Shown here: positions 7,143 to 50,363 of the stretch, piece after piece
How the letters are laid out: the number at the start of each line of letters is the position of its first letter
How positions within the stretch are numbered: position 1 is the stretch's first letter
From: Devosia sp.
GTDB lineage: Bacteria; Pseudomonadota; Alphaproteobacteria; Rhizobiales; Devosiaceae
Direction: 5' to 3'
Assembly: GCA_030680995.1 (NCBI GenBank)
Contig: JAUXUM010000130.1
Span: 1-52,262 of the forward strand
Length of the DNA: 52,262 nt
Notes under the pieces: model-generated
Databases searched by the model: none
Told to the model about the DNA's origin: nothing
Seen by the model: the letters and a program-made list of their open reading frames with translations, nothing else
Translations under genes and position numbers: made by a program

Positions 7143-7484
7143 TCAGGCCGGCTTGTTGTCGTTTACCGGAGTCGATTTGGAGCGGACGTCGGCGATCATG
7201 GTGCGGACGACCTTGACGCGGGTCCCCTGCGCGATCTCGACTTCGAGGTCCTCGCCGTCGACCGCCTTGGTCACCTTGCCGATGATCCCGCCCGTGGTCA
7301 CCACCGTGTCGCCCCGGGTGATTGCGCCCAGCATGGCCTGCTGCGCCTTCATGCGCTTCTGCTGCGGCCGGAAGATCAGGAGCCAGAAGATGACGACCAA
7401 CAGCAGGATCGGCATCAGCGAGGTCACGATATCCATCGCTCCGGCGCCACCGGCGTCCTGCGCAAAGGCGGGGGTCACGAACAT
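7143..7484 (-). CDS. yajC: preprotein translocase accessory subunit YajC
   Basis: This 113-residue protein has a short periplasmic N-terminus, one hydrophobic segment (about residues 20-42, SLMPILLLVVIFWLLIFRP), and then the typical PQQKRMK and a small cytoplasmic beta domain (GDTVVTTGGIIGKV). It forms part of the SecDF-YajC complex at the inner membrane. GGAGCC lies before the ATG at 7484. It heads the unit yajC - secDF - NDUFAF3-like - NDUFAF6-like and is divergent from the DUF815 ATPase gene, with the promoters presumably in 7485-7673. Confidence 0.95.
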   Translation of the reverse strand: MFVTPAFAQDAGGAGAMDIVTSLMPILLLVVIFWLLIFRPQQKRMKAQQAMLGAITRGDTVVTTGGIIGKVTKAVDGEDLEVEIAQGTRVKVVRTMIADVRSKSTPVNDNKPA

Positions 7485-7673
7485 ATAAGGCTCCTTGTCG
7501 AGTTGGCTGTCGGCTTGTCAAAATGCCGTTGATTGTCCCATATAGGAAACGCTTCCGGCTATGGGCAGGCCCACCCGGCACAAAATCGCGCGGACTATAG
7601 AGGCGAACCCGGACGATTGCAAAGGCAATCCAGTGCTGTAAAACCGGGCCCTTCTGCCGGAGGAAATCGCATC

Positions 7674-8546
7674 ATGAGTGAGGAATTCCTGGGCGCCATT
7701 GCTGCGTCTCTGGCTCGTATTGCGCAGGCGCTCGAGGCCATGCATCCGGCCGCCAAAGCCATGGGGCCGGCGCTGCATGACGCCGATGCCTATCACTGGG
7801 ATGTCGCATCCGGGAGCCTCGCCCCTGTACTCCGGGTAGCGCGGGTGCCGCTGGCGCTGCTCAAGGGCATCGAGGATGTTCGGGAGATCCTGCTGCGGAA
7901 TACGCTGCAGTTCGCGCACGGTTTTGCAGCCAACAATGCCCTGCTCTGGGGTGCCCGCGGCATGGGCAAGAGTTCGCTGGTCAAGGCCATCCACGCGCAT
8001 GTCGCGTCTGAACAATCCGGAATCAAGCGACTGATTCTGGTCGAGATTGCGCGCGAGGATATCGAGACTCTCCCCAGGTTGATGCGGATCATCTCCAGGG
8101 AGGACGCCCGCTTCATCGTCTTCTGCGACGACCTGAGCTTCGACAAGGACGAAACCAGTTACAAGTCATTGAAGACCATCCTCGACGGCGGCCTCGAGGG
8201 CCGGCCCGAGAACGTCTTGTTCTACGCCACCTCCAATCGCCGGCACCTGATGCCGCGGGAGATGATCGAAAACGAGCGCTCGACCGCCATCACGCCAGGC
8301 GAAGCCGTGGACGAGAAAATCTCGCTGTCGGACCGGTTCGGGCTGTGGCTGGGGTTCCACAATTGCGACCAGCCCACCTTCTTTTCCATGATTCGCGGAT
8401 ACTGCGACCACTACGGGCTCGCGATCGACGACGAAACGCTGCGCGCCCGCGCCGTCGAATGGTCCGCGACGCGCGGCGCCCGCTCCGGTCGCGTCGCCAT
8501 CCAGTTCGTCCGCCAGCTGGCCGGCGAGCAAGAGAAGACGGCGTAG
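7674..8546 (+). CDS. DUF815 family AAA-type ATP-binding protein
   Basis: This 290-residue P-loop protein carries a Walker A of LLWGARGMGKSSLVKAI (about residues 94-110) and a Walker B of FIVFCDDLSF, followed by the sensor-like LFYATSNRRHLMPR. It has the family's EKISLSDRFGLWLGF. DUF815 ATPases commonly stand next to yajC in alphaproteobacteria, as here, where the gene is divergent from it. Function is unknown; an AAA-type remodelling role is only inferred. The start at 7674 follows GGAGGAAA with good spacing, and the longer frame from 7533 adds a low-complexity leader without homology. Confidence 0.85.
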   Translation: MSEEFLGAIAASLARIAQALEAMHPAAKAMGPALHDADAYHWDVASGSLAPVLRVARVPLALLKGIEDVREILLRNTLQFAHGFAANNALLWGARGMGKSSLVKAIHAHVASEQSGIKRLILVEIAREDIETLPRLMRIISREDARFIVFCDDLSFDKDETSYKSLKTILDGGLEGRPENVLFYATSNRRHLMPREMIENERSTAITPGEAVDEKISLSDRFGLWLGFHNCDQPTFFSMIRGYCDHYGLAIDDETLRARAVEWSATRGARSGRVAIQFVRQLAGEQEKTA

Positions 8547-36380: not shown

Positions 36381-37007
36381 ACCACTCAAAGTCCGAACCG
36401 GGCGCTGTCGCCCTTGTTCCGGGCATCACAGCCGATAATCTCCCGAAATCCCGCCAGTTCGGCTGCTGGATCGGGGCCGGCCTGGAATCCCACGACGTCC
36501 CACGACCGTCCAGCGCATCCTACCAGAAGAGGTCCGTGCGGTGCGTTGGGCGGTCGCCTGAAGCGCATGGAACTCGGCCCTTATCGGCTGGTTGGCAGGT
36601 CATGCCTCGCCGTTGCGACCGGCGAGACCAGCGCCGGCTGCGCCAGCCAACTCTTCGCTTGAACCTTTGACTTATGGCGAAGAGGGGCTTGGCCGAGCCT
36701 TGTCCGGCAGCTCCAAACAGTGAATCCGCTGGTTCCAATCCTGGAAATGTTCGCGGCGCCAAAGGTTCGAGTTACTGTCCGGCGTCTGTCCGCCCGCAAG
36801 CTTGCCCGGTTCTTCTCGCAGCAGCTGATGCGATGCCGTAAGTTGCATGCCATGTACAGGGTTTTGCCCGACCCCTGACCACAGCGCAAGGACCGGGCAT
36901 TCACGGCATACAAACTGGAGCACATGATTGGGGGCCAAAGGGCGGATTGCCGAGAACACATAATTATTATAATAGCATAATGATTATCAGATGAGGACGC
37001 GCATAGC
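36381..37007. other. 627-bp region without recognisable gene
   Basis: I find no frame here that resembles a protein; the frames on both strands are short and compositionally random. There is no integrase remnant and no repeated tRNA 3' end that would mark an att site. Only the last 50 bases have a clear role, as the operator-bearing promoter of the SDR operon. The rest may be decayed sequence between core and accessory DNA. Confidence 0.45.
36961..36986. promoter_or_regulatory. operator-like site 1 (SDR operon)
   Basis: This 26-base A+T-rich dyad has half sites TAATNATTAT and ATAATNATTA. It contains, on the minus strand at 36966-36982, the 17-mer CATTATGCTATTATAAT, identical to site 3. A TATAAT hexamer (36968-36973) lies inside, so a bound repressor would cover the -10 region. 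It ends 22 bases before the first SDR gene. The proposed ligand-responsive regulator is the GntR/UTRA protein at 49593. Confidence 0.65.
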
Positions 37008-37787
37008 ATGCACTGCGATTTGAGCGGCAGGGTGGCGTTCGTCACTGGCGCGGCGGGGGCGATCGGGAGCGTGATTGCCGAGCGCCTGGCCGAGAACGGG
37101 GCCGCGGTGGTGATCGCCGACATCGACCTTGCGGGCGCCGAGGCGGTCGCCGCCAGCCTTGGAACGGCGATGGCCTGCGCTGTCGACATCGGCAGCGCAA
37201 CGTCGGTCGAGACGGCGGTCGGGCGCGCGCTCGAACGCTTCGGTAGGCTCGACATCCTCGTTAACAATGCGGGTGTCAACACGCTCGCCCACCGGGTGAA
37301 CATCGATCAGTTCCCCGTCGAAGAATGGGACCGGATCACCCGCATCGACTTCGACGGTCTCTATCTCATGAGCCGCGCCGCGCTCAGGCCCATGCTCGCC
37401 GCCGGCGCGGGCGGGCGTGTCATCAACATCGCCTCGGTGGTCGGGCTCGCGGCCATGCGGTTGCAGAGTCCGTTCGTCGCGGCGAAAGCCGGCATCATCC
37501 ATTTGACGAGGTCCATGGCGCTCGAACTCGGGCCGCAAGGCGTCCTCGTCAACGCCATCGCTCCCGGCTCGGTAATGACCGAACTCACCAAGAAGCTCTT
37601 CTACGGCAAGGATGGAAAATTCTTCGCGAAAACCGAAGAGTTCATGAAGCACGTGCCGCTCGGTCGCCCGGGCCGGCCGGAGGAGATCGCCGAGACTGTG
37701 CTGTTCCTCGCCTCGCCAGGGGCCGGCTACATCAACGGCCAGGTGCTGGCGGTCGACGGCGGCTGGACCGCCGGTTACATGATGTAG
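37008..37787 (+). CDS. short-chain dehydrogenase with catalytic Tyr replaced by Phe
   Basis: This 259-residue classical SDR fold has the NAD(P)-binding motif TGAAGAIG (residues 13-20), NNAG (86-89) and catalytic Ser143. Where the YxxxK motif belongs it reads FVAAK, so Phe156 replaces the catalytic Tyr while Lys160 is kept. It should bind cofactor but be impaired in proton transfer. The next gene, 6 bases downstream, is a shortened SDR with the opposite defects. The pair may form one mixed enzyme. The expected sugar or sugar-acid oxidation role comes only from context. Confidence 0.9.
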
Positions 37788-37793
37788 GGGCCC

Positions 37794-38372
37794 ATGCGGA
37801 TCGAACTCAAGGACGCCCTCGTCGAACTGCGCGGCGACAACAACGCGGTGGTTGCGGCAGCGCTGGAGAGCCTTGTGGCCAATGGTGCGACGCTGGCCGA
37901 CGGCGAAACGGCCCGCCTGCCCGACATCCTGCTCCTCTCCCTGCCCCTGGTGCCGCGGGACGGATTGGAAGTGGAGCCGCTGCTCGCGGCGGCCCGGTCG
38001 ACCGCGGAGGCGATGGCGCAGCGCGGCGGCGGGCGTCTCCTCTTCATCCTCTCCGCGGCGGCCACCATGCCGATGCGCCGCCATCCCGGTTATTCGGTGC
38101 AGATGGCGGCAGCGCTGGCGGGCATGCGCGGGCTCGCCATGGAATTCGGCCCCAAGGTGCTGGTCAACGCGCTGGGCGTCGGCGCCATCGGAGAACCGGT
38201 GCTGGCCGGCGACACCGCCATGCTCACGCACGCCTCCGTGGGCCGAGCCGGAACGCTGCAGGAGGTGACCGACACGGTGCTGTTCTTCTGCGATCCGTAC
38301 AACAGCTATACCAGCGGGCAATTGCTGGCGGTCGATGGCGGCTGGAGCGCCGGCTATGGCCGCAATTTCTAG
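37794..38372 (+). CDS. degenerate SDR-like protein without Rossmann glycine motif
   Basis: This 192-residue protein aligns with the C-terminal two thirds of SDRs: GRLLFILSAAA (Ser87), YSVQM at the YxxxK position (Tyr100 present, Lys replaced by Met104), MEFGPKVLVNALGVG, and the ending SGQLLAVDGGWSAGYG, which closely matches the end of the preceding SDR. The N-terminal TGxxxGxG and NNAG motifs are absent, so it cannot bind NAD(P) in the normal way. It is most likely a pseudoenzyme subunit partnering the upstream SDR; a decaying duplicate is the alternative. Confidence 0.8.
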   Translation: MRIELKDALVELRGDNNAVVAAALESLVANGATLADGETARLPDILLLSLPLVPRDGLEVEPLLAAARSTAEAMAQRGGGRLLFILSAAATMPMRRHPGYSVQMAAALAGMRGLAMEFGPKVLVNALGVGAIGEPVLAGDTAMLTHASVGRAGTLQEVTDTVLFFCDPYNSYTSGQLLAVDGGWSAGYGRNF

Positions 38373-43832: not shown

Positions 43833-43849
43833 TATTATACTATTATAAA
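43833..43849. promoter_or_regulatory. operator-like site 2 (transporter operon)
   Basis: TATTATACTATTATAAA matches the 17-base motif of sites 1 and 3 at 14 positions. It lies in an A+T-rich island (about 43824-43853) between the permease gene and the enolase-superfamily remnant. It presumably controls the minus-strand transporter operon and once also the remnant gene. Confidence 0.55.
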
Positions 43850-43854
43850 TGTCA

Positions 43855-44429
43855 ATACCTTTCGCGCCTTCTGGCTGCGCGCGCATAGGGACGCCGGCAT
43901 TATCGGCATCGAGTTGCACGACCGCACGCCGGGCAGCGCCTATGTCGGCGCGCGATTCCGGCGCCGAATTGCGCCGCAATTCGGCGGTCGACATCGCGCT
44001 ATGGGACATCTACGGCCAGGCGCTGGGCGAGCCGCTATGGCGGCTGCCCGGCGGGTGCACGCACCAGTCGATACCCATCTACAACACCTGTGCTGGCCAC
44101 AAGCATGTGCCGGCCAGCAAGCGCAATGCGCTGTTCGAGCGCACCGAGGGGACTGGTCGCTCAAGGCGGGCGATTCTAACGAAGGTCCCCATGAGAATCT
44201 CTTGGCTTGGCGCTTCAAAGCCGGTGAACTGGCCAAGAGCCTGCTTTCGGAAGGCATCCGCGCGATGAAAATCTGGCCGATGGACGGCCTTGGCCTTGGC
44301 CTTGGCCTTGGCCTTGGCCTTGGCCTTGGCCTTGGCCTTGGCCTTGGCCTTGGCCTTGGCCTTGGCACGAGCCTGCGTCCGGAACTGTTCCAGCGGCCCG
44401 ACGCCACGGTACACGTGACGCGGGGCTGA
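43855..44429 (+). pseudogene. enolase-superfamily (mandelate racemase-type) dehydratase remnant
   Basis: Pieces of one protein are spread over the reading frames. FRAFWLRAHRDAG leads to IELHDRTPGSAYVGAR. After a shift near 43945-43955 comes SGAELRRNSAVDIALWDIYG and IYNTCAGHKHVPASKRN. After a second shift in the G run 44148-44151 comes LAWRFKAGELAKSLLSEG and IRAMKIWPMD. A GGCCTT repeat follows at once, and the last piece SLRPELFQRPDATVHVTRG (stop 44427-44429) looks like the family C-terminus. About 90 N-terminal and 150-200 internal residues are missing. The intact ancestor was probably a sugar-acid dehydratase of this cluster. Confidence 0.8.
44286..44366 (+). repeat. hexanucleotide (GGCCTT) tandem repeat, 13.5 copies
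   Basis: There are 13 uninterrupted copies of GGCCTT (44286-44363) plus GGC. The array encodes Gly-Leu repeats in the remnant's frame and Ala-Lys repeats on the other strand. It sits exactly where the internal part of the dehydratase pseudogene has been lost. No other simple repeat of this length is present in the window. Confidence 0.97.
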
Positions 44430-44445: not shown

Positions 44446-45213
44446 CTACTTGGCCCGCACCGCCTCGGCCACGCCTTTCAATCCGACAAGGATATGCGCC
44501 GTATCGACGCCGACTCCCACCAGGGTGACGCCGCGGCCCAGCCAGCGTCGTGCCGAGTCGGGCGTTCCGGCGAAGATAGCGGCGACGAGGCCCGCCGTGC
44601 CCACCGCTTCGATCACCGCTTCGATGGTCTGAACAACCTTCGGATGCCCCATCTCTCCGGGTACGCCGAGCGCATGCGAGAGGTCCATCGGCCCGAGGAA
44701 GATACCGTCGAGCGTCGGCACGGTAAGGATTTCCGGCAATGCCGCCACCCCGTCGGCGCCTTCCACCATCAACAGGACCGCGACGTCTTCGTTGGCCTTG
44801 GCGAACCATTCGGCCCGGCCGCTATAGTCGGCGCCGCGTACGAACGGATTGGCGCCGCGATTGCCGTCCGGGGCGAAGCGGGCCGCGCGCACGGCCCGTC
44901 GCGCCTCCTCGGCCGAACCGATCTGCGGCACGATGACCCCGGCCGCGCCCGCATCGAGTGCCGCGCCGATCTCGGAGGGCTCACCGGTGCGCACCCGCAC
45001 CAGCGGATAGATGCCACGGGCCCTTGCGGCGAGCACCAACGGCCCTAGCGATTCCGTACCGTAGGCACCATGCTCCATATCGAGGATAATGCCGTCGAAG
45101 CCCGCCAGCGCCACCAGCTCGACGATCTCGACCGCGGCGATGATCGAAAACGTCACGATAAAGGGGGCGCCGGTCTTGAGGCGCAACCTCAGTGAATCCG
45201 TCGGCTGCAGCAT
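44446..45213 (-). CDS. HpcH/HpaI-family class II aldolase
   Basis: This 255-residue divalent-metal aldolase of the HpcH/HpaI/CitE superfamily carries the signature GIILDMEHGAYG (catalytic His48 in DMEHG), the pyruvate-binding Arg in YPLVRVRTGEP, metal Glu in LLMVEGADGV and metal Asp in GIFLGPMDLSHALG. Such enzymes split 2-keto-3-deoxy sugar acids (for example 2-keto-3-deoxy-L-rhamnonate) or 4-hydroxy-2-oxo acids to pyruvate and an aldehyde. Operator site 3 lies 56 bases upstream of its ATG, shared with the divergent E1 fusion gene. The substrate is inferred from context only. Confidence 0.9.
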   Translation of the reverse strand: MLQPTDSLRLRLKTGAPFIVTFSIIAAVEIVELVALAGFDGIILDMEHGAYGTESLGPLVLAARARGIYPLVRVRTGEPSEIGAALDAGAAGVIVPQIGSAEEARRAVRAARFAPDGNRGANPFVRGADYSGRAEWFAKANEDVAVLLMVEGADGVAALPEILTVPTLDGIFLGPMDLSHALGVPGEMGHPKVVQTIEAVIEAVGTAGLVAAIFAGTPDSARRWLGRGVTLVGVGVDTAHILVGLKGVAEAVRAK

Positions 45214-45363: not shown

Positions 45364-47757
45364 GTGGCGATTTCCGTGGCACGCAAGGGCGGGCAGCAAG
45401 CGAGTGCCGGCAATCTGCCGGATCGCGCCGTCCTGATGGGATTGTTCGAGCAGATGGTGCTGCTGCGCCGCTTCGAGAGCACGGCGCAGATCGCCTGCCG
45501 CAAGGGCGAGACGCCCGGCTTCCTGCACCTTTATATCGGCCAGGAAGCGACCGGCGTCGGCGTCTGCGCGCATCTGCGGCATAGCGACTGGGTCACGTCC
45601 ACGCATCGCGGCCATGGTCATGCCCTCGCCAAGGGCGCCGATCCCAAGCGCGTGATGGCCGAACTCTTCGGCAAGGTAGACGGCATCTGCGGCGGCCGCG
45701 GCGGAACCATGCATCTCTATGACCGCACCGCCGGCCTGTTCGGCACCAACGGCATCGTGGCGGCGGGTATCGGCCACGCGGTCGGCATCGGCATGAGCGC
45801 CCACCGACAGGGCCGCGACGATATCGGCGTCGCCTTCTTCGGCGATGGCGCGGCCAATCATGGTGGCTTTCACGAGGCGCTGAATTTTGCCGCCGTGCAA
45901 CGCGCGCCGGCGGTATTCGTGTGCGAGAACAACCTCTACGCCACCGCGACCCCGCTCAAATCGGTCACCCTCAATCCCGAGATCGCCAGCAAGGCGGCGT
46001 CCTACGGCATGCCGGGCGTTGCCGTGGACGGCAACGACGTCTTCGCCGTCTGGCTGGCGATGAAGGAAGCCACCGAACGTGCCCGCTCGGGCAAGGGCCC
46101 GACCCTGATCGAGTGCAAGACCTACCGCACAGTGGGCCACCATGAGGGCGATCCGGTCGTCGGCACCTACCGGACGCAGGCCGAAGTCGACGCCTGGCTC
46201 AAGCGCGATCCCATCGACATGTTCCGCAAGCGCCTGATCGAGGATTATGGCGTCGCCGACGCGGAGGACCTCGCCGATATCGAGGCCCATGTCGAGAGGG
46301 TGGTGCAGGAGGCGCTGGAGTTCGCCCGCAACTCGCCCGAGCCGGACCCGGCGACGGTACGCCGCCATGTCTTCGCCGACCCGATCAACCCGCCCGAGGC
46401 GTTGCGTCCGCAGCCGGCGGGCGAGACCCGGGTACAAGGCTGGCTGGAAGCGGTGCGCGACGGCATTGCCGAGGAAATGCGCGCCAATTCCGCCATCCTC
46501 TATTTCGGCGAGGGCACCGGCGAGCGCGGCGGCAGCTTCGCCCACACCAAGAATCTCTGGCAGGAATTCGGCGCCGAACGGATGGTCGACACGCCGATCT
46601 CCGAGCAGGGTTTTACCGCTGCTGCCGTCGGCGCTTCGGCCACCGGCGCCAGAACCGTCTCGGACCTGATGTTCGCCGATTTCGCCTTCGAGACGGCCGG
46701 CCAGATTTTCCTGCAGGCCGCAAAGCTTCGCTACATGAGCAATGGCGCGATGAATGCGCCAATGGTGGTGCGGATCGGTGCCGGAGCGCTGCGCAGCTCC
46801 GGGCCGCACCATAGCGGCATGTACCACCCGGTCTTCGCGCATATGCCGGGGCTCGTGGTTTGCGTGCCCTCGACCCCCGCCGACGCCAAGGGGCTGATGA
46901 AGACGGCGCTGCGCGCCGGCGATCCGGTGATCATGCTGGAGCCGAAGGCGCTCTTCGCCTCCAGGAGCGAAGTCCCGGTGGGAGAGCACTACGTGCCGTT
47001 CGGCGTTGCGCGCATCGCGCGGTCCGGCGCCGACATCACTATCGTTGCCGCCGGGCAGATGGTGCCGCGTTCGCTCGAAGCGGCGGCACTCCTTGCGGCT
47101 GAGGGGATTGAGGCCGAGATCATCGACTTGCGCACGATCATGCCGCTCGACGTCAATACCGTGGTCGAAAGCCTCAAGAAGACCCACAAACTGCTGGTCG
47201 TCGACGAGGCCTGGGCCATGTGCGGCATGGGCGGCGAAATCGCCCAGACCATCAACGAGCTGGCCTTCGACGAGCTGGACGCACCGGTCGGCCGACTGCA
47301 TACGGCGCCAACCTCGCATCCATTTGCGCCGGTACTGGAACACGCCATGCTGGTCGACACGCCCCGCATCGTCGACGCGGCCCGTAAGGTGATTGCCGGT
47401 ACCCCGCCGGTGCCCGATCACTGGCATGCGACAGGCATAAGGTCGGCTACAGCTCCGGCATCTGCCGCGCCTGCCCCGGCCGTGCCGGCCGCGCCCACTT
47501 CCACATCTGCCGCATCCGGGAACGAGGAGCCGATCAACATGCCGTTCGGCGACCTCACGGTATCCGAAGGCACGCTGGTCAAGTGGCTGAAGGCGGTCGG
47601 CGATGCGGTCGAGGAAGGCGAAGTGGTGGCCGAAATCGAGACCGACAAGACCGTGGTGGAGATCGAAGCCCCGATGAGCGGCACGCTCGCCAGCATCGAC
47701 CAGCCGGTCGGCGCGGTCGTGCCGATGGGCGGCCGGATCGGTGCCGTCGGAAAGTAA
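45364..47757 (+). CDS. 2-oxoacid dehydrogenase: E1alpha-E1beta-lipoyl triple fusion
   Basis: This 797-residue protein joins three normally separate parts. Residues about 20-340 are the thiamine-diphosphate E1alpha with FFGDGAANHGGFHEALNFA and VCENN. Residues about 365-690 are the E1beta transketolase-like half, with TPISEQGFTAAAVGAS and APMVVRIGAGALRSSGPHHS. An Ala/Pro linker leads to a C-terminal lipoyl domain (about 720-797) with the lipoylation Lys in EIETDKTVVEIEAP. GTG 45364 follows GGGAGGGG. It belongs to the pyruvate/acetoin/branched-chain class; the substrate is unknown. An E2-like gene follows, but there is no E3 in the window. Confidence 0.93.
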   Translation: MAISVARKGGQQASAGNLPDRAVLMGLFEQMVLLRRFESTAQIACRKGETPGFLHLYIGQEATGVGVCAHLRHSDWVTSTHRGHGHALAKGADPKRVMAELFGKVDGICGGRGGTMHLYDRTAGLFGTNGIVAAGIGHAVGIGMSAHRQGRDDIGVAFFGDGAANHGGFHEALNFAAVQRAPAVFVCENNLYATATPLKSVTLNPEIASKAASYGMPGVAVDGNDVFAVWLAMKEATERARSGKGPTLIECKTYRTVGHHEGDPVVGTYRTQAEVDAWLKRDPIDMFRKRLIEDYGVADAEDLADIEAHVERVVQEALEFARNSPEPDPATVRRHVFADPINPPEALRPQPAGETRVQGWLEAVRDGIAEEMRANSAILYFGEGTGERGGSFAHTKNLWQEFGAERMVDTPISEQGFTAAAVGASATGARTVSDLMFADFAFETAGQIFLQAAKLRYMSNGAMNAPMVVRIGAGALRSSGPHHSGMYHPVFAHMPGLVVCVPSTPADAKGLMKTALRAGDPVIMLEPKALFASRSEVPVGEHYVPFGVARIARSGADITIVAAGQMVPRSLEAAALLAAEGIEAEIIDLRTIMPLDVNTVVESLKKTHKLLVVDEAWAMCGMGGEIAQTINELAFDELDAPVGRLHTAPTSHPFAPVLEHAMLVDTPRIVDAARKVIAGTPPVPDHWHATGIRSATAPASAAPAPAVPAAPTSTSAASGNEEPINMPFGDLTVSEGTLVKWLKAVGDAVEEGEVVAEIETDKTVVEIEAPMSGTLASIDQPVGAVVPMGGRIGAVGK

Positions 47758-47871
47758 CGGGGACCGCTGCCGGCGGCCGGGGGACAAGCAATGTAAATTC
47801 TATGCACCAACTGTCAGGCCTCGGACGAGGCCGAACTCGAGCGCGAGCACTATCCCGGTATCGAGTTCATT

Positions 47872-48807
47872 GTGGCCAGATCGACCACCGACGTCGCCGC
47901 TACGCTCGACCCCGAAATCTGCAAATCCGTGGACGCGGTCATCAACTATTCGCCTACCCTAAATGTCGCGGCGGCGCCCTCCGCCTTCCCCAATGCGAAG
48001 ATCGCCGTCCGCTCCGGCGTCGGCTTCGACAATATCGACACGGCCGGCTGGGGCGCCCGCAATATTCCCGCCTGCAATGTGCCCGACTATGGCACCACCG
48101 AAGTCGCCGACCACGCCATCGGCCTGATGCTGGCGCTGACCCGCGGTACATCGAGCTATGGACCGGAGCTGGTGCGGGATGGTTTCGACGGCTGGAATTT
48201 CTCCAAGGCGCCGCTGGTCCGCCGTCACAGGGGCGCGACGTTCGGCGTCGTCGGTCTCGGGCGCATCGGCTTTGCCGCAACGCGCCGCGCCGCGGCCTTC
48301 GACATGAAGGTGATGTTCTACGATCCGCACCTCTCATCAGGTGTCGACCTTTCCACCGGCTATGAGCGTGTGCACTCGCTTGCCGAGCTGATGGGCCGCA
48401 GCGACGTGGTTTCGGTGCATGCCCCGCTCAGCGCGACCACCCGCGGATTGCTCGGAGCGGAAGCGTTTGCCGCCGCCAAGCCGGGACTGATCCTCATCAA
48501 CACGGCACGCGGCCCCATCGTCGATTTGTCGGCGCTCGAAGCGGCGATGCGGAACGACATCGTGGCCGGCGCGGGACTCGATGTGCTGCCCAACGAACCG
48601 GGTGATCTCGACCACCCGCTGCTCGCCGCCTGGCGCCGCGACGAGGCCTGGATCAATGGGCGCCTGATCGTGACCCCGCACGCGGCATTTTTTAGCCCGG
48701 CCGCGATGCGCGACCTGCGCCTCAAATCCACCGAAGTGGTACACGCCTTTCTCACCGAAGGCCGGCTGACCAATTGCGTCAATGCCGAGTATCTGAGGGC
48801 TCGATGA
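47872..48807 (+). CDS. D-isomer-specific 2-hydroxyacid dehydrogenase, N-terminus in doubt
   Basis: This NAD-dependent dehydrogenase of the CtBP/phosphoglycerate-dehydrogenase type has GVVGLGRIGFAATRRAA (Rossmann motif), catalytic Arg in NTARGPIVD, Glu in VLPNEPGD and His in VTPHAAFFS. GTG 47872 gives 311 residues. In the same frame the sequence upstream (47797-47871) still encodes a fitting N-terminus (ILCTNCQASDEAELE, then YPGIEF). The best start, ATG 47791, with GGGGGA 6 bases upstream, is followed at once by TAA (47794). The gene is therefore broken at codon 2 or starts unusually. It is coupled to the E2-like gene (ATGA, 48804-48807). Confidence 0.75.
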   Translation: MARSTTDVAATLDPEICKSVDAVINYSPTLNVAAAPSAFPNAKIAVRSGVGFDNIDTAGWGARNIPACNVPDYGTTEVADHAIGLMLALTRGTSSYGPELVRDGFDGWNFSKAPLVRRHRGATFGVVGLGRIGFAATRRAAAFDMKVMFYDPHLSSGVDLSTGYERVHSLAELMGRSDVVSVHAPLSATTRGLLGAEAFAAAKPGLILINTARGPIVDLSALEAAMRNDIVAGAGLDVLPNEPGDLDHPLLAAWRRDEAWINGRLIVTPHAAFFSPAAMRDLRLKSTEVVHAFLTEGRLTNCVNAEYLRAR

Positions 48808-49508
48808 CCACAGCACCCCTGCAGTCCGCGCGCCGCGCAGTGTCGCCCTATGCACGGCGGCTTGCCCGCGAGCGCGGAATCGCGCTGGAGTCGCTGACGG
48901 GTACCGGCCCCGCGGGCCGAATCATTGCGGCCGACGTTGCCGGTTTCGTCCCCCATACGGCAGAAGTTTTGCTCCGGAATACCGGCCTGCGGACCTCCGC
49001 CCTCGGGGCGACAATCCAGATGGAGACGCTGCAGCGCCTGCTGGCCGGGTTTGCCGAGGCCGATACGCCCTTCGTCCTGGAAGACGTAACGCTGCGCGCC
49101 GCCGGCTGTGCACTCGACGATGTCCCCGGTACCAGCGGCCTAGAGGGCTTGCCGGTCGCCCTCGAAACGATGCTGGGCCAGCGGCGCGGCCAGATCGTTT
49201 TCGCCGACATCCGCAAAGGTTCGCTGGCGCCGCTGCGCTTGCGCCGGCTCGCTGCTCTCGAAGCAGCCGCTGATCAGTCCGGCGCGCCCGCCGCGCTGTC
49301 CCTGCGGCTGTTACAGGTCGGCGACATCCGCCCTGTCCTGATGCCGCTGCTGCCGGGTCGCGTCATGCGGCTGGTGCTTGCGGCCGGTCCCGCCTCGGCC
49401 GAGTGCCTACTGTCATTCGATGCGGACGCTGTGGACGAGGACGCGGCCACCGAATTCCTGGCCAGGTTCAAGAGCTACCTGGAGGTCCCGCTGCGCCTGC
49501 TGGCATAG
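48804..49508 (+). CDS. E2-like protein: E1/E3-binding domain + inactive acyltransferase core
   Basis: This 234-residue protein starts with a peripheral-subunit-binding domain (about residues 8-48, VSPYARRLARERGIALESL). A shortened 2-oxoacid dehydrogenase acyltransferase domain follows, ending LLSFDADAVDEDAATEFLARF. In active E2 the last motif is DHRVVDGA; here it reads DADAVDED, so the catalytic His is gone. The protein has no lipoyl domain; that domain is fused to E1 two genes upstream. It may be a scaffold holding the E1-lipoyl protein, not an acyl-CoA-forming enzyme. The overlap with the hydroxyacid dehydrogenase gene indicates one operon. Confidence 0.8.
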   Translation: MTTAPLQSARRAVSPYARRLARERGIALESLTGTGPAGRIIAADVAGFVPHTAEVLLRNTGLRTSALGATIQMETLQRLLAGFAEADTPFVLEDVTLRAAGCALDDVPGTSGLEGLPVALETMLGQRRGQIVFADIRKGSLAPLRLRRLAALEAAADQSGAPAALSLRLLQVGDIRPVLMPLLPGRVMRLVLAAGPASAECLLSFDADAVDEDAATEFLARFKSYLEVPLRLLA

Positions 49509-49592: not shown

Positions 49593-50363
49593 ATGGACGA
49601 CTTGACATCCAATATCGACCTTCTTCCGAAGCGATCGCTGGCCCGTGCGCACGGACCTCTCTACCGGCAGCTGGCCGATATCCTGCGCGAGCCCATTGCG
49701 AACGGCGCATTTCCGGTGGGCGGGGAGCTGCCGAAGGAAGCGACGATTGCCGACCATTTCGGGGTGAGCCTCATCACCGTGCGCCAGGCGTTGCGCGATC
49801 TCGAGACCGACGGGCTGATCAAGAAGCGCTCGGCCAAGCCCGCGGTCGTCACCGCCCGCAACCCGTCGGTAACTCTCAGCTGGGATTTCAGGAATTTCGC
49901 CGACATGGCGGCCTTCACCAAGGACGCGCAGCTCAAGATCAAGTCCTACCGCAAGGAGGTGGCGCCGGTGCTGCAGCGTCATTTCGGCATGGGCAAGGAT
50001 GAGGCCGGCTACTGCCTGCGCAGCGTGCTGTCGGTGGGAACGCAGAAGAAGGCGCAGGTCACCACCTATTTCCCGCCCGACGTCGGCGCCCAGTTCAAGC
50101 GCGAGGATTTCACCGATGTGCTGATCTTCCGCTCGGTGCAGAAGCACCTCAACGTGCGCATGGTGGTCGCCCATGTCACCGTGCGGGCCGAGATTGCCGA
50201 CGAGGCGGTGGCGGCCGATCTCGACATCGCCGAGGGGGCACCGCTCCTCACCGTCGAGATGCTGTACCAGTCGGACGAGCAGCGCAATGTCGAGCTCTCG
50301 ATCGCCCGCCACCGGGCCGATCTGTTCAGCATCACCTATGACGCACCGAATGACATGGCCTGA
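49593..50363 (+). CDS. GntR-family transcriptional regulator (HutC/UTRA type)
   Basis: This 256-residue protein has an N-terminal GntR winged helix (about residues 20-85) with LYRQLADILREPIANGAFPVG, LPKEATIADHFGVSLITVRQ and ALRDLETDGLIKK. The C-terminal UTRA effector-binding domain (about 110-256) is of the type that binds sugars or small acids. It probably represses the cluster by binding the A+T-rich sites at 36.96, 43.83, 45.27 and 49.55 kb and releases them on binding a pathway metabolite. The start Met at 49593 is the only one before the HTH, although the GAGG site is rather far away (13 bases). Confidence 0.9.
   Translation: MDDLTSNIDLLPKRSLARAHGPLYRQLADILREPIANGAFPVGGELPKEATIADHFGVSLITVRQALRDLETDGLIKKRSAKPAVVTARNPSVTLSWDFRNFADMAAFTKDAQLKIKSYRKEVAPVLQRHFGMGKDEAGYCLRSVLSVGTQKKAQVTTYFPPDVGAQFKREDFTDVLIFRSVQKHLNVRMVVAHVTVRAEIADEAVAADLDIAEGAPLLTVEMLYQSDEQRNVELSIARHRADLFSITYDAPNDMA

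Follow-up and report, generated by a model that had tools for sequence, protein, structure and literature searches.

How might a 2-oxoacid dehydrogenase complex work when the lipoyl arm sits on its first enzyme and the protein in the place of its second has lost the catalytic histidine? Such complexes are textbook machines organised around an active E2 (dihydrolipoyl acyltransferase) core that carries the arm. The question is raised by contig JAUXUM010000130.1 of a Devosia sp. genome (assembly GCA_030680995.1; 3.14 Mb in 257 contigs, 96% complete), whose 52,262 bases are referred to here as the window, and in which a 797-residue fusion of E1 with a lipoyl domain is encoded together with a 234-residue E2-like protein. 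We tentatively propose, at close to even odds (a probability of about 0.48), that the E2-like protein could act as an adaptor without a catalytic role, much as the eukaryotic E3-binding protein (E3BP) does, with lipoamide dehydrogenase (E3, Lpd), and perhaps also the transfer of the acyl group to coenzyme A (CoA), being borrowed.

An E1 that carries its own lipoyl arm

The fusion gene lies at 45364..47757 on the plus strand including the stop codon (coding 45364-47754). A reading of this DNA made from its letters and open frames, hereafter the sequence-only reading, had described the product as E1alpha, E1beta and a lipoyl domain in a single chain, and the Pfam matches confirm this: PF00676 (E1_dh, E 2e-85), PF02779, PF02780 and PF00364 (Biotin_lipoyl, E 3e-15, residues 732-791). 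E1alpha spans approximately residues 30-329 and E1beta 360-669, followed by an Ala/Pro linker and the lipoyl domain, such that the lipoyl lysine, K762 in the motif ETDKT, is located on E1 and not on E2. Among relatives, the thiamine pyrophosphate motif and the Glu and catalytic His positions compared are retained by between 49 and 52 of the 52 fusion rows, depending on the site. All 48 fusion rows that reach the predicted lipoylation site have the lysine (L129 among them duplicates L047), with the motif taking the form ETEK in L054 and L060; the other four (L043, L061, L063 and L071) stop at contig ends and their lipoyl part lies beyond view. The fusion therefore carries the domains and, as judged from alignment, the residues expected of an E1 of the alpha2beta2 type in 2-oxoacid dehydrogenases.

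A single position adjacent to the E1alpha active-site His sets the family apart. Residue 260 (46141-46143, within GHHEGDP) is His in 50 of the 52 fusion rows, while the ten relatives without a lipoyl domain have Ser (nine) or Tyr (one) and never His; the change from Ser to His is, on this alignment, a signature of the fusion clade. Residue 260 corresponds to the first phosphorylation serine of human pyruvate dehydrogenase (PDH), and the THRGHGH motif is reminiscent of the E1alpha of acetoin dehydrogenase.

An E2-like protein without the E2 active site

The E2-like gene (48804..49508 on the plus strand including the stop; coding 48804-49505) encodes a peripheral subunit-binding domain (PSBD; PF02817 E3_binding, E 6e-14, residues 13-45; 48840..48938) followed by a degenerate acyltransferase (CAT) core covering roughly residues 65-234. 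PF00198 matches only a C-terminal vestige of this core, at 14.6 bits and below its cut-off of 23, and the Pfam scan found no lipoyl domain in the protein. The composition anticipated from sequence, a subunit-binding domain and a short acyltransferase core in which the DHRxxDGx site reads DADAVDED (49419..49442), is thereby borne out. A profile-profile comparison of seven E2-like cores with seven E2s aligned 166 columns with a probability of 93% (E 5e-7), with internal deletions and with the N-terminal part of CAT outside the aligned range; the core is therefore a true, if remote, homologue of CAT that has lost the active site.

A scan of genome contigs, in which 79 loci were obtained from the best 80 matches retained, provided relatives for comparison. 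There are 28 distinct E2-like loci, of which 26 were aligned and two with broken frames (L035 and L066) were excluded. The catalytic His is absent from all 26, its place being taken by Ala (14), Glu (5), Pro (3), Thr (2), Gly (1) or Ser (1), and the catalytic Asp-Gly and the Ser have gone as well. The Asp of the former DHR (D206) and Arg 189 are invariant in all 26. Including L035, the His is missing from 27 of 27 readable proteins, L066 being unreadable at the site. As a control, D-H-R..D-G is present in 7/7 E2s of a separate alignment, three of which are planctomycete fusion partners; it is also found in 9/9 long frames of L065-L112 that passed a motif filter, a weak control since the filter itself requires CAT-like motifs and passes few frames. 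The protein is not an E2 in the accepted sense, as it has neither the N-terminal lipoyl domain nor DHRxxDG within a CAT domain scoring above the PF00198 cut-off.

Despite this loss, conservation is concentrated at the two ends of the protein. The mean share of the most frequent residue over the 26 sequences is 0.77 in the PSBD, 0.47 in the core and 0.78 at residues 226-233, and the P, L, R and L of the C-terminal ExPLRLLA (49482..49505) are invariant (26/26). In the PSBD, Arg 18, 22 and 39, presumably the arginines that contact E3 or E1, are found in 23, 24 and 26 of the 26, respectively. Nei-Gojobori ratios of non-synonymous to synonymous change (dN/dS) range from 0.18 to 0.46 for the E2-like gene in 13 chosen pairs; in the 11 of them that allow both genes to be read, the fusion has 0.07 to 0.15. 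Pooled over ten chosen close pairs, they are 0.18 for the PSBD, 0.27 for the core and 0.17 for the C-terminal end. These values indicate that the E2-like gene is selected as a protein, under purifying selection looser than that on E1. A terminal 3-10 helix of E2p has been described in trimer-trimer contacts in one account (PMC10415282).

The degenerate core occurs beside E1-lipoyl fusions

A single E2-like query was of little use for mapping distribution, matching 279 of 385 genomes of the class; the rows read fall on the PSBD of ordinary E2s, and the search was therefore made with a profile of the core alone. Among 397 genomes of the order that profile had 15 matches, every one adjoining an E1-lipoyl fusion (the window and 14 others), and 2 of the 385 class genomes, namely that of the window itself and, partially, G072 (28.9 bits, in a 409-residue frame). 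E1 matches at E 1e-170 or better were found in 17 of the 397, of which G466 is without the lipoyl part by its match range. Of the 16 fusions that remain, 15 have the E2-like gene; the sixteenth (L178, genome G641) has an Ldh2-family gene directly 3' of the fusion, and the core profile has no match in that genome. A query with the lipoyl end, run against 31 genomes, matched the window alone and missed the fusion of G399, and its result was not used.

Could the arrangement be a sequencing or assembly artefact of a metagenome-assembled genome (MAG)? The start of the dehydrogenase gene and a mandelate-racemase-family gene in the window do look damaged. The same fusion with the E2-like gene is, however, present in isolates and MAGs of several genera, which refutes this explanation and leaves it a negligible chance. 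Fusion and degenerate E2 also turn up in L066, titled as a MAG of Exiguobacterium profundum, and in L068, a Burkholderiales MAG; both are probably mislabelled or mis-binned, and the L066 fusion groups inside the Rhizobiales clade described below. The small PSBD frames that were opened proved to be E2s at contig ends or, in two Verrucomicrobia with E1-lipoyl fusions, a lipoyl-PSBD protein without CAT (L143 4300-4812; L144 2312-2836). The latter is not near the fusion and adjoins genes that look, by eye, like KDO-8-phosphate synthase and CTP synthase.

Intact, degenerate and absent partners

If the loss of the active site accompanied the fusion everywhere, E2-like homologues retaining DHRxxDG should not be found next to it. 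They are found, in distant relatives. In the planctomycete loci L059 and L062, the E2 beside the fusion consists of a PSBD and a full CAT (PF00198 E 3e-64 and 3e-58) without a lipoyl domain and keeps DHRVMDG; a further open frame separates the two genes in L059. The E2 of L177 keeps DHRAVDG and apparently has two PSBD-like segments, the first of them degenerate. The motif is therefore present in all three complete planctomycete partners, that of L060 ending at a contig end before the site. In this phylum, E1 matches at E 1e-150 occur in 7 of 199 genomes, with two reaching the lipoyl part, one of them in the genome of L059.

At the other extreme, 15 of the 47 fusion rows of the tree have no E2 in the examined flanks, which differ in length (the downstream flank of L050, for example, covers 2.7 kb and the upstream flank of L055 0.4 kb) and in which a very divergent E2 could escape. 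This is the case for all Rhodospirillales-type, verrucomicrobial and acidobacterial fusion members seen, again within the examined flanks. Fifteen genomes were searched for the E2-like core (13 without an E2 beside the fusion and two with an intact one), and no whole core was found in them; there were six partial matches in five genomes, none above 25.1 bits and four of the six at the C-terminal end. In L042, a Devosia MAG, an antisense fragment resembling an E2 C terminus (DYRAVDG; 7302-7750, minus strand) lies at and after the end of the fusion, which qualifies the label 'no E2' there.

A tree of E1 alone (56 rows, 47 of them fusions) was built by a quick method and carries a long-branch warning for rows including L177 and L064. 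A branch with a Shimodaira-Hasegawa-like approximate likelihood ratio (SH-aLRT) support of 100 separates the fusions from the other rows. At the unresolved base of the fusions are L054, L064, L177 and the group L056/L059/L062, with L060 branching next. A clade of 38 rows (support 100) is alphaproteobacterial save for the odd title of L066, and divides into two groups. The first has seven rows (support 97), mostly Rhodospirillales by title with L055 titled Hyphomicrobiales, and none of the seven shows an E2 in its examined flanks; the second, the Rhizobiales clade, has 31 rows (support 98), 27 with a degenerate E2 and four without E2. The E2 labels require 9 changes on this tree against a mean of 25.3 when shuffled.

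The sequence-only reading had asked whether the loss of the His motif is constant and linked to the fusion. This stands within the Rhizobiales clade (27/27, with the degenerate core found only beside fusions, 15/15) and does not extend to the family, given the planctomycete motif and the rows without any E2; the DHRxxDG homologues that would count against it are those of L059, L062 and L177, and none lies inside the clade. The loss of the active site is probably clade-specific. Since a fusion with an intact, lipoyl-free E2 exists in planctomycetes, the degenerate E2 most simply lost its active site rather than never having had one. The fusion probably arose first, with an intact lipoyl-free E2, and the E2 then decayed or was lost, a direction that rests on the outgroup. 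The most surprising result is the sister clade, where the lack of any E2 beside the fusion suggests that this E1 needs no dedicated acyltransferase.

Locus and neighbouring genes

Between the fusion and the E2-like gene, as first noted, lies a D-2-hydroxyacid dehydrogenase (PF02826/PF00389; 47791..48807, plus strand), whose stop is overlapped by the E2-like start (ATGA at 48804), an arrangement that fits the single operon suggested for these genes. This position is not general, as a hydroxyacid dehydrogenase sits there in only 12 of the 28 E2-like loci. The expected ATG at 47791 is immediately followed by TAA, where the four relatives compared read MKIL; the frame is open after that TAA, and its next listed start is GTG 47872. 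The ATG-TAA at 47791-47796 may reflect a sequencing error, an alternative start or decay.

The genes around fusions were scanned in 54 sources (53 distinct, L129 repeating L047) with seeds taken from the loci themselves. Recurrent neighbours are a short-chain dehydrogenase (SDRa; in the window 36987..37784, plus strand), a short SDR-like protein of 193 residues (SDRb; 37791..38369, plus), a GntR/UTRA regulator (49593..50363, plus; Pfam) and a dehydrogenase of the D-2-hydroxyacid or Ldh2 family. Some loci also have an FAA hydrolase, a KDPG-type aldolase, an HpcH aldolase or a mandelate-racemase-family gene; in the window, an HpcH/HpaI-type aldolase identified by Pfam (44446..45213, minus) is divergent from the fusion. 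SDRb is matched in 20 of the 53 distinct sources; its matches to SDR families, among the rows listed, begin at about residue 60, and it is possibly a second pseudo-enzyme of the cluster. The mandelate-racemase-family gene is a broken fragment in the window (43849-44429), containing 13.5 perfect GGCCTT hexamers at 44286-44366, and corresponds to a 417-residue frame upstream of the fusion in L041.

From these neighbours, the setting is likely to be oxidative breakdown of a sugar or sugar acid, in which a 2-hydroxyacid or the 2-oxo compound derived from it would feed E1. Plasmid searches with the fusion (at E 1e-150) and with the E2-like protein gave no match. E1alpha alone matches 355 plasmid records, all below 60% identity, and these offer no clue to the substrate. 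A second complete E2 for this E1 was sought in the cluster and none is present in the window; the examined flanks of the 54 fusion sources likewise contain no E3 (Lpd) match.

Discussion

The system shares individual features with several known ones. Like E3BP (PDHX, PX) of mammalian and fungal PDH, the E2-like protein combines a PSBD with an E2-homologous core devoid of the catalytic His; it differs in being bacterial and in lacking a lipoyl domain, the arm being on E1, and no dedicated E2 that is active adjoins it. In E3BP the PSBD is selective for E3, and the protein associates with an active E2 core. One account (PMC10156792) describes mammalian E3BP as having the E2 domain topology, lipoyl domain included, and discusses a fold reduction of the core in fungal forms. 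An E2-homologous chain with a PSBD and a core predicted to be inactive is thus shared; the lipoyl domain is missing from the chain, and for this reason we do not class the protein as a member of E3BP but only as one that may work like it. With a canonical E2 it shares the PSBD and remote CAT homology, but not the lipoyl domain, DHRxxDG or the length of the core. The planctomycete E2s (L059, L062 and L177) have the same fusion partner and are likewise armless, but keep DHRVMDG or DHRAVDG and score as PF00198 (tested for L059 and L062).

A further comparison is with actinobacterial OdhA/KGD, an E2o-E1o fusion reported to rely on the arm of E2p (PMC10415282). In both systems domains are redistributed between E1 and E2 and parts are borrowed from PDH, in Devosia by our proposal. 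OdhA has an active CAT and borrows an arm, whereas the Devosia system has an arm and a dead CAT, and on this proposal it would be a mirror image. Alphaproteobacterial PDH also places a lipoyl domain on an E1 chain (the frames of L146 and L150 match both), but on E1beta alone and beside an E2 with its own lipoyl domain. In that E1beta the lipoyl domain is N-terminal. Among the titles and abstract openings listed by searches of open-licence papers, none describes an E1-lipoyl fusion with a degenerate E2.

We propose the following mechanism for the adaptor. E1 would decarboxylate or cleave its substrate and load the acyl group onto its own lipoyl arm, to which the PSBD of the E2-like protein would bring E3, its predicted partner, borrowed from a housekeeping complex. 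The conserved C-terminal end could bind either itself or a housekeeping E2 core. In the weakest step, the acyl group would pass to CoA on that intact core. Elsewhere in the genome there are three E2s with DHRxxDG and an Lpd, the three PF00198 genes sitting with their own sucA-like frame, lpd or E1beta. The adaptor reading is preferred because it explains a dead, PSBD-bearing E2 that is under selection and that, in the genomes searched, is found only with E1-lipoyl fusions. Several points weigh against it. Docking of the adaptor on a housekeeping E2, transfer to CoA and the choice of E3 rather than E1 as PSBD partner are predicted steps. The dN/dS of the E2-like gene exceeds that of the fusion by a factor of about 1.6 to 5 (11 pairs), as relaxed constraint would likewise predict. 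The gene is also absent from L038, L042, L074 and L178, four fusion-bearing members of the Rhizobiales clade, and these absences, together with those in other lineages, mean that it is not indispensable.

The sequence-only reading had left two routes side by side, release of a free acid or use of the E2-like protein as a scaffold with E3 borrowed, and the evidence leans to the scaffold. The alternative, in which no acyl-CoA is made, the arm is freed of its acyl group by hydrolysis to a free acid or, given a suitable hydroxyl, by formation of a lactone, and E3 on the adaptor re-oxidises the arm, is unlikely but not negligible. In its favour are the uniform loss of the His, the seven E2-free rows of the sister clade, the lack of a whole E2-like core elsewhere in the 13 genomes tested (of 15 without one beside the fusion) and the His at residue 260 that marks the fusion clade. 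It also fits the attachment of other E2s to complexes of their own: of ten further E2 loci in six genomes, nine adjoin their own E1 or E3, and the tenth (L149) begins at a contig end. Set against this, an intact E2 persists in members close to the base, so that acyl-CoA was probably the ancestral product, and no dedicated thioesterase was noticed beside the fusion, in the course of a survey without a search aimed at one, although some loci have FAA-hydrolase-family genes. In its broader form, a branch of the family spread over several phyla would have abandoned CoA. There an E1 bearing its own arm, together with E3 held by a dead-E2 adaptor or lacking any E2, would oxidise its substrate to a free acid or a self-released lactone; this form is a shade less probable again.

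A vestige would also look much like this: an E2-like gene on its way out, with the fusion using housekeeping E2 and E3 and doing without it. We consider this rather doubtful. In the four cases of absence no copy was found elsewhere in the genome, the frames of L035 and L066 are broken and selection is looser than on the fusion, but 15 of the 16 genomes with a fusion in the order sample retain the gene, the dN/dS of its core and C-terminal end is low, and the PSBD is conserved and PLRL invariant. That the core retains the ability to bind CoA or the arm and carries out the transfer by means of other residues is very improbable. The invariant Asp and Arg 189 and the lasting CAT homology could be taken in its favour; the His, Asp-Gly and Ser are nevertheless gone, six different residues occupy the His position, and the stretch that aligns does not include the N-terminal part of CAT.

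Returning to the adaptor and the family in which it occurs, living relatives show a likely order of events, from a fusion whose E2 is intact but without an arm, through an E2 without an active site, to no E2 beside the fusion. This raises the question of whether a dead E2 becomes an E3 adaptor in bacteria, as it does in eukaryotes, and whether the acyltransferase step can be outsourced or skipped. If the CoA-free reading were true, a step long thought obligatory in 2-oxoacid dehydrogenase complexes would be dispensable.

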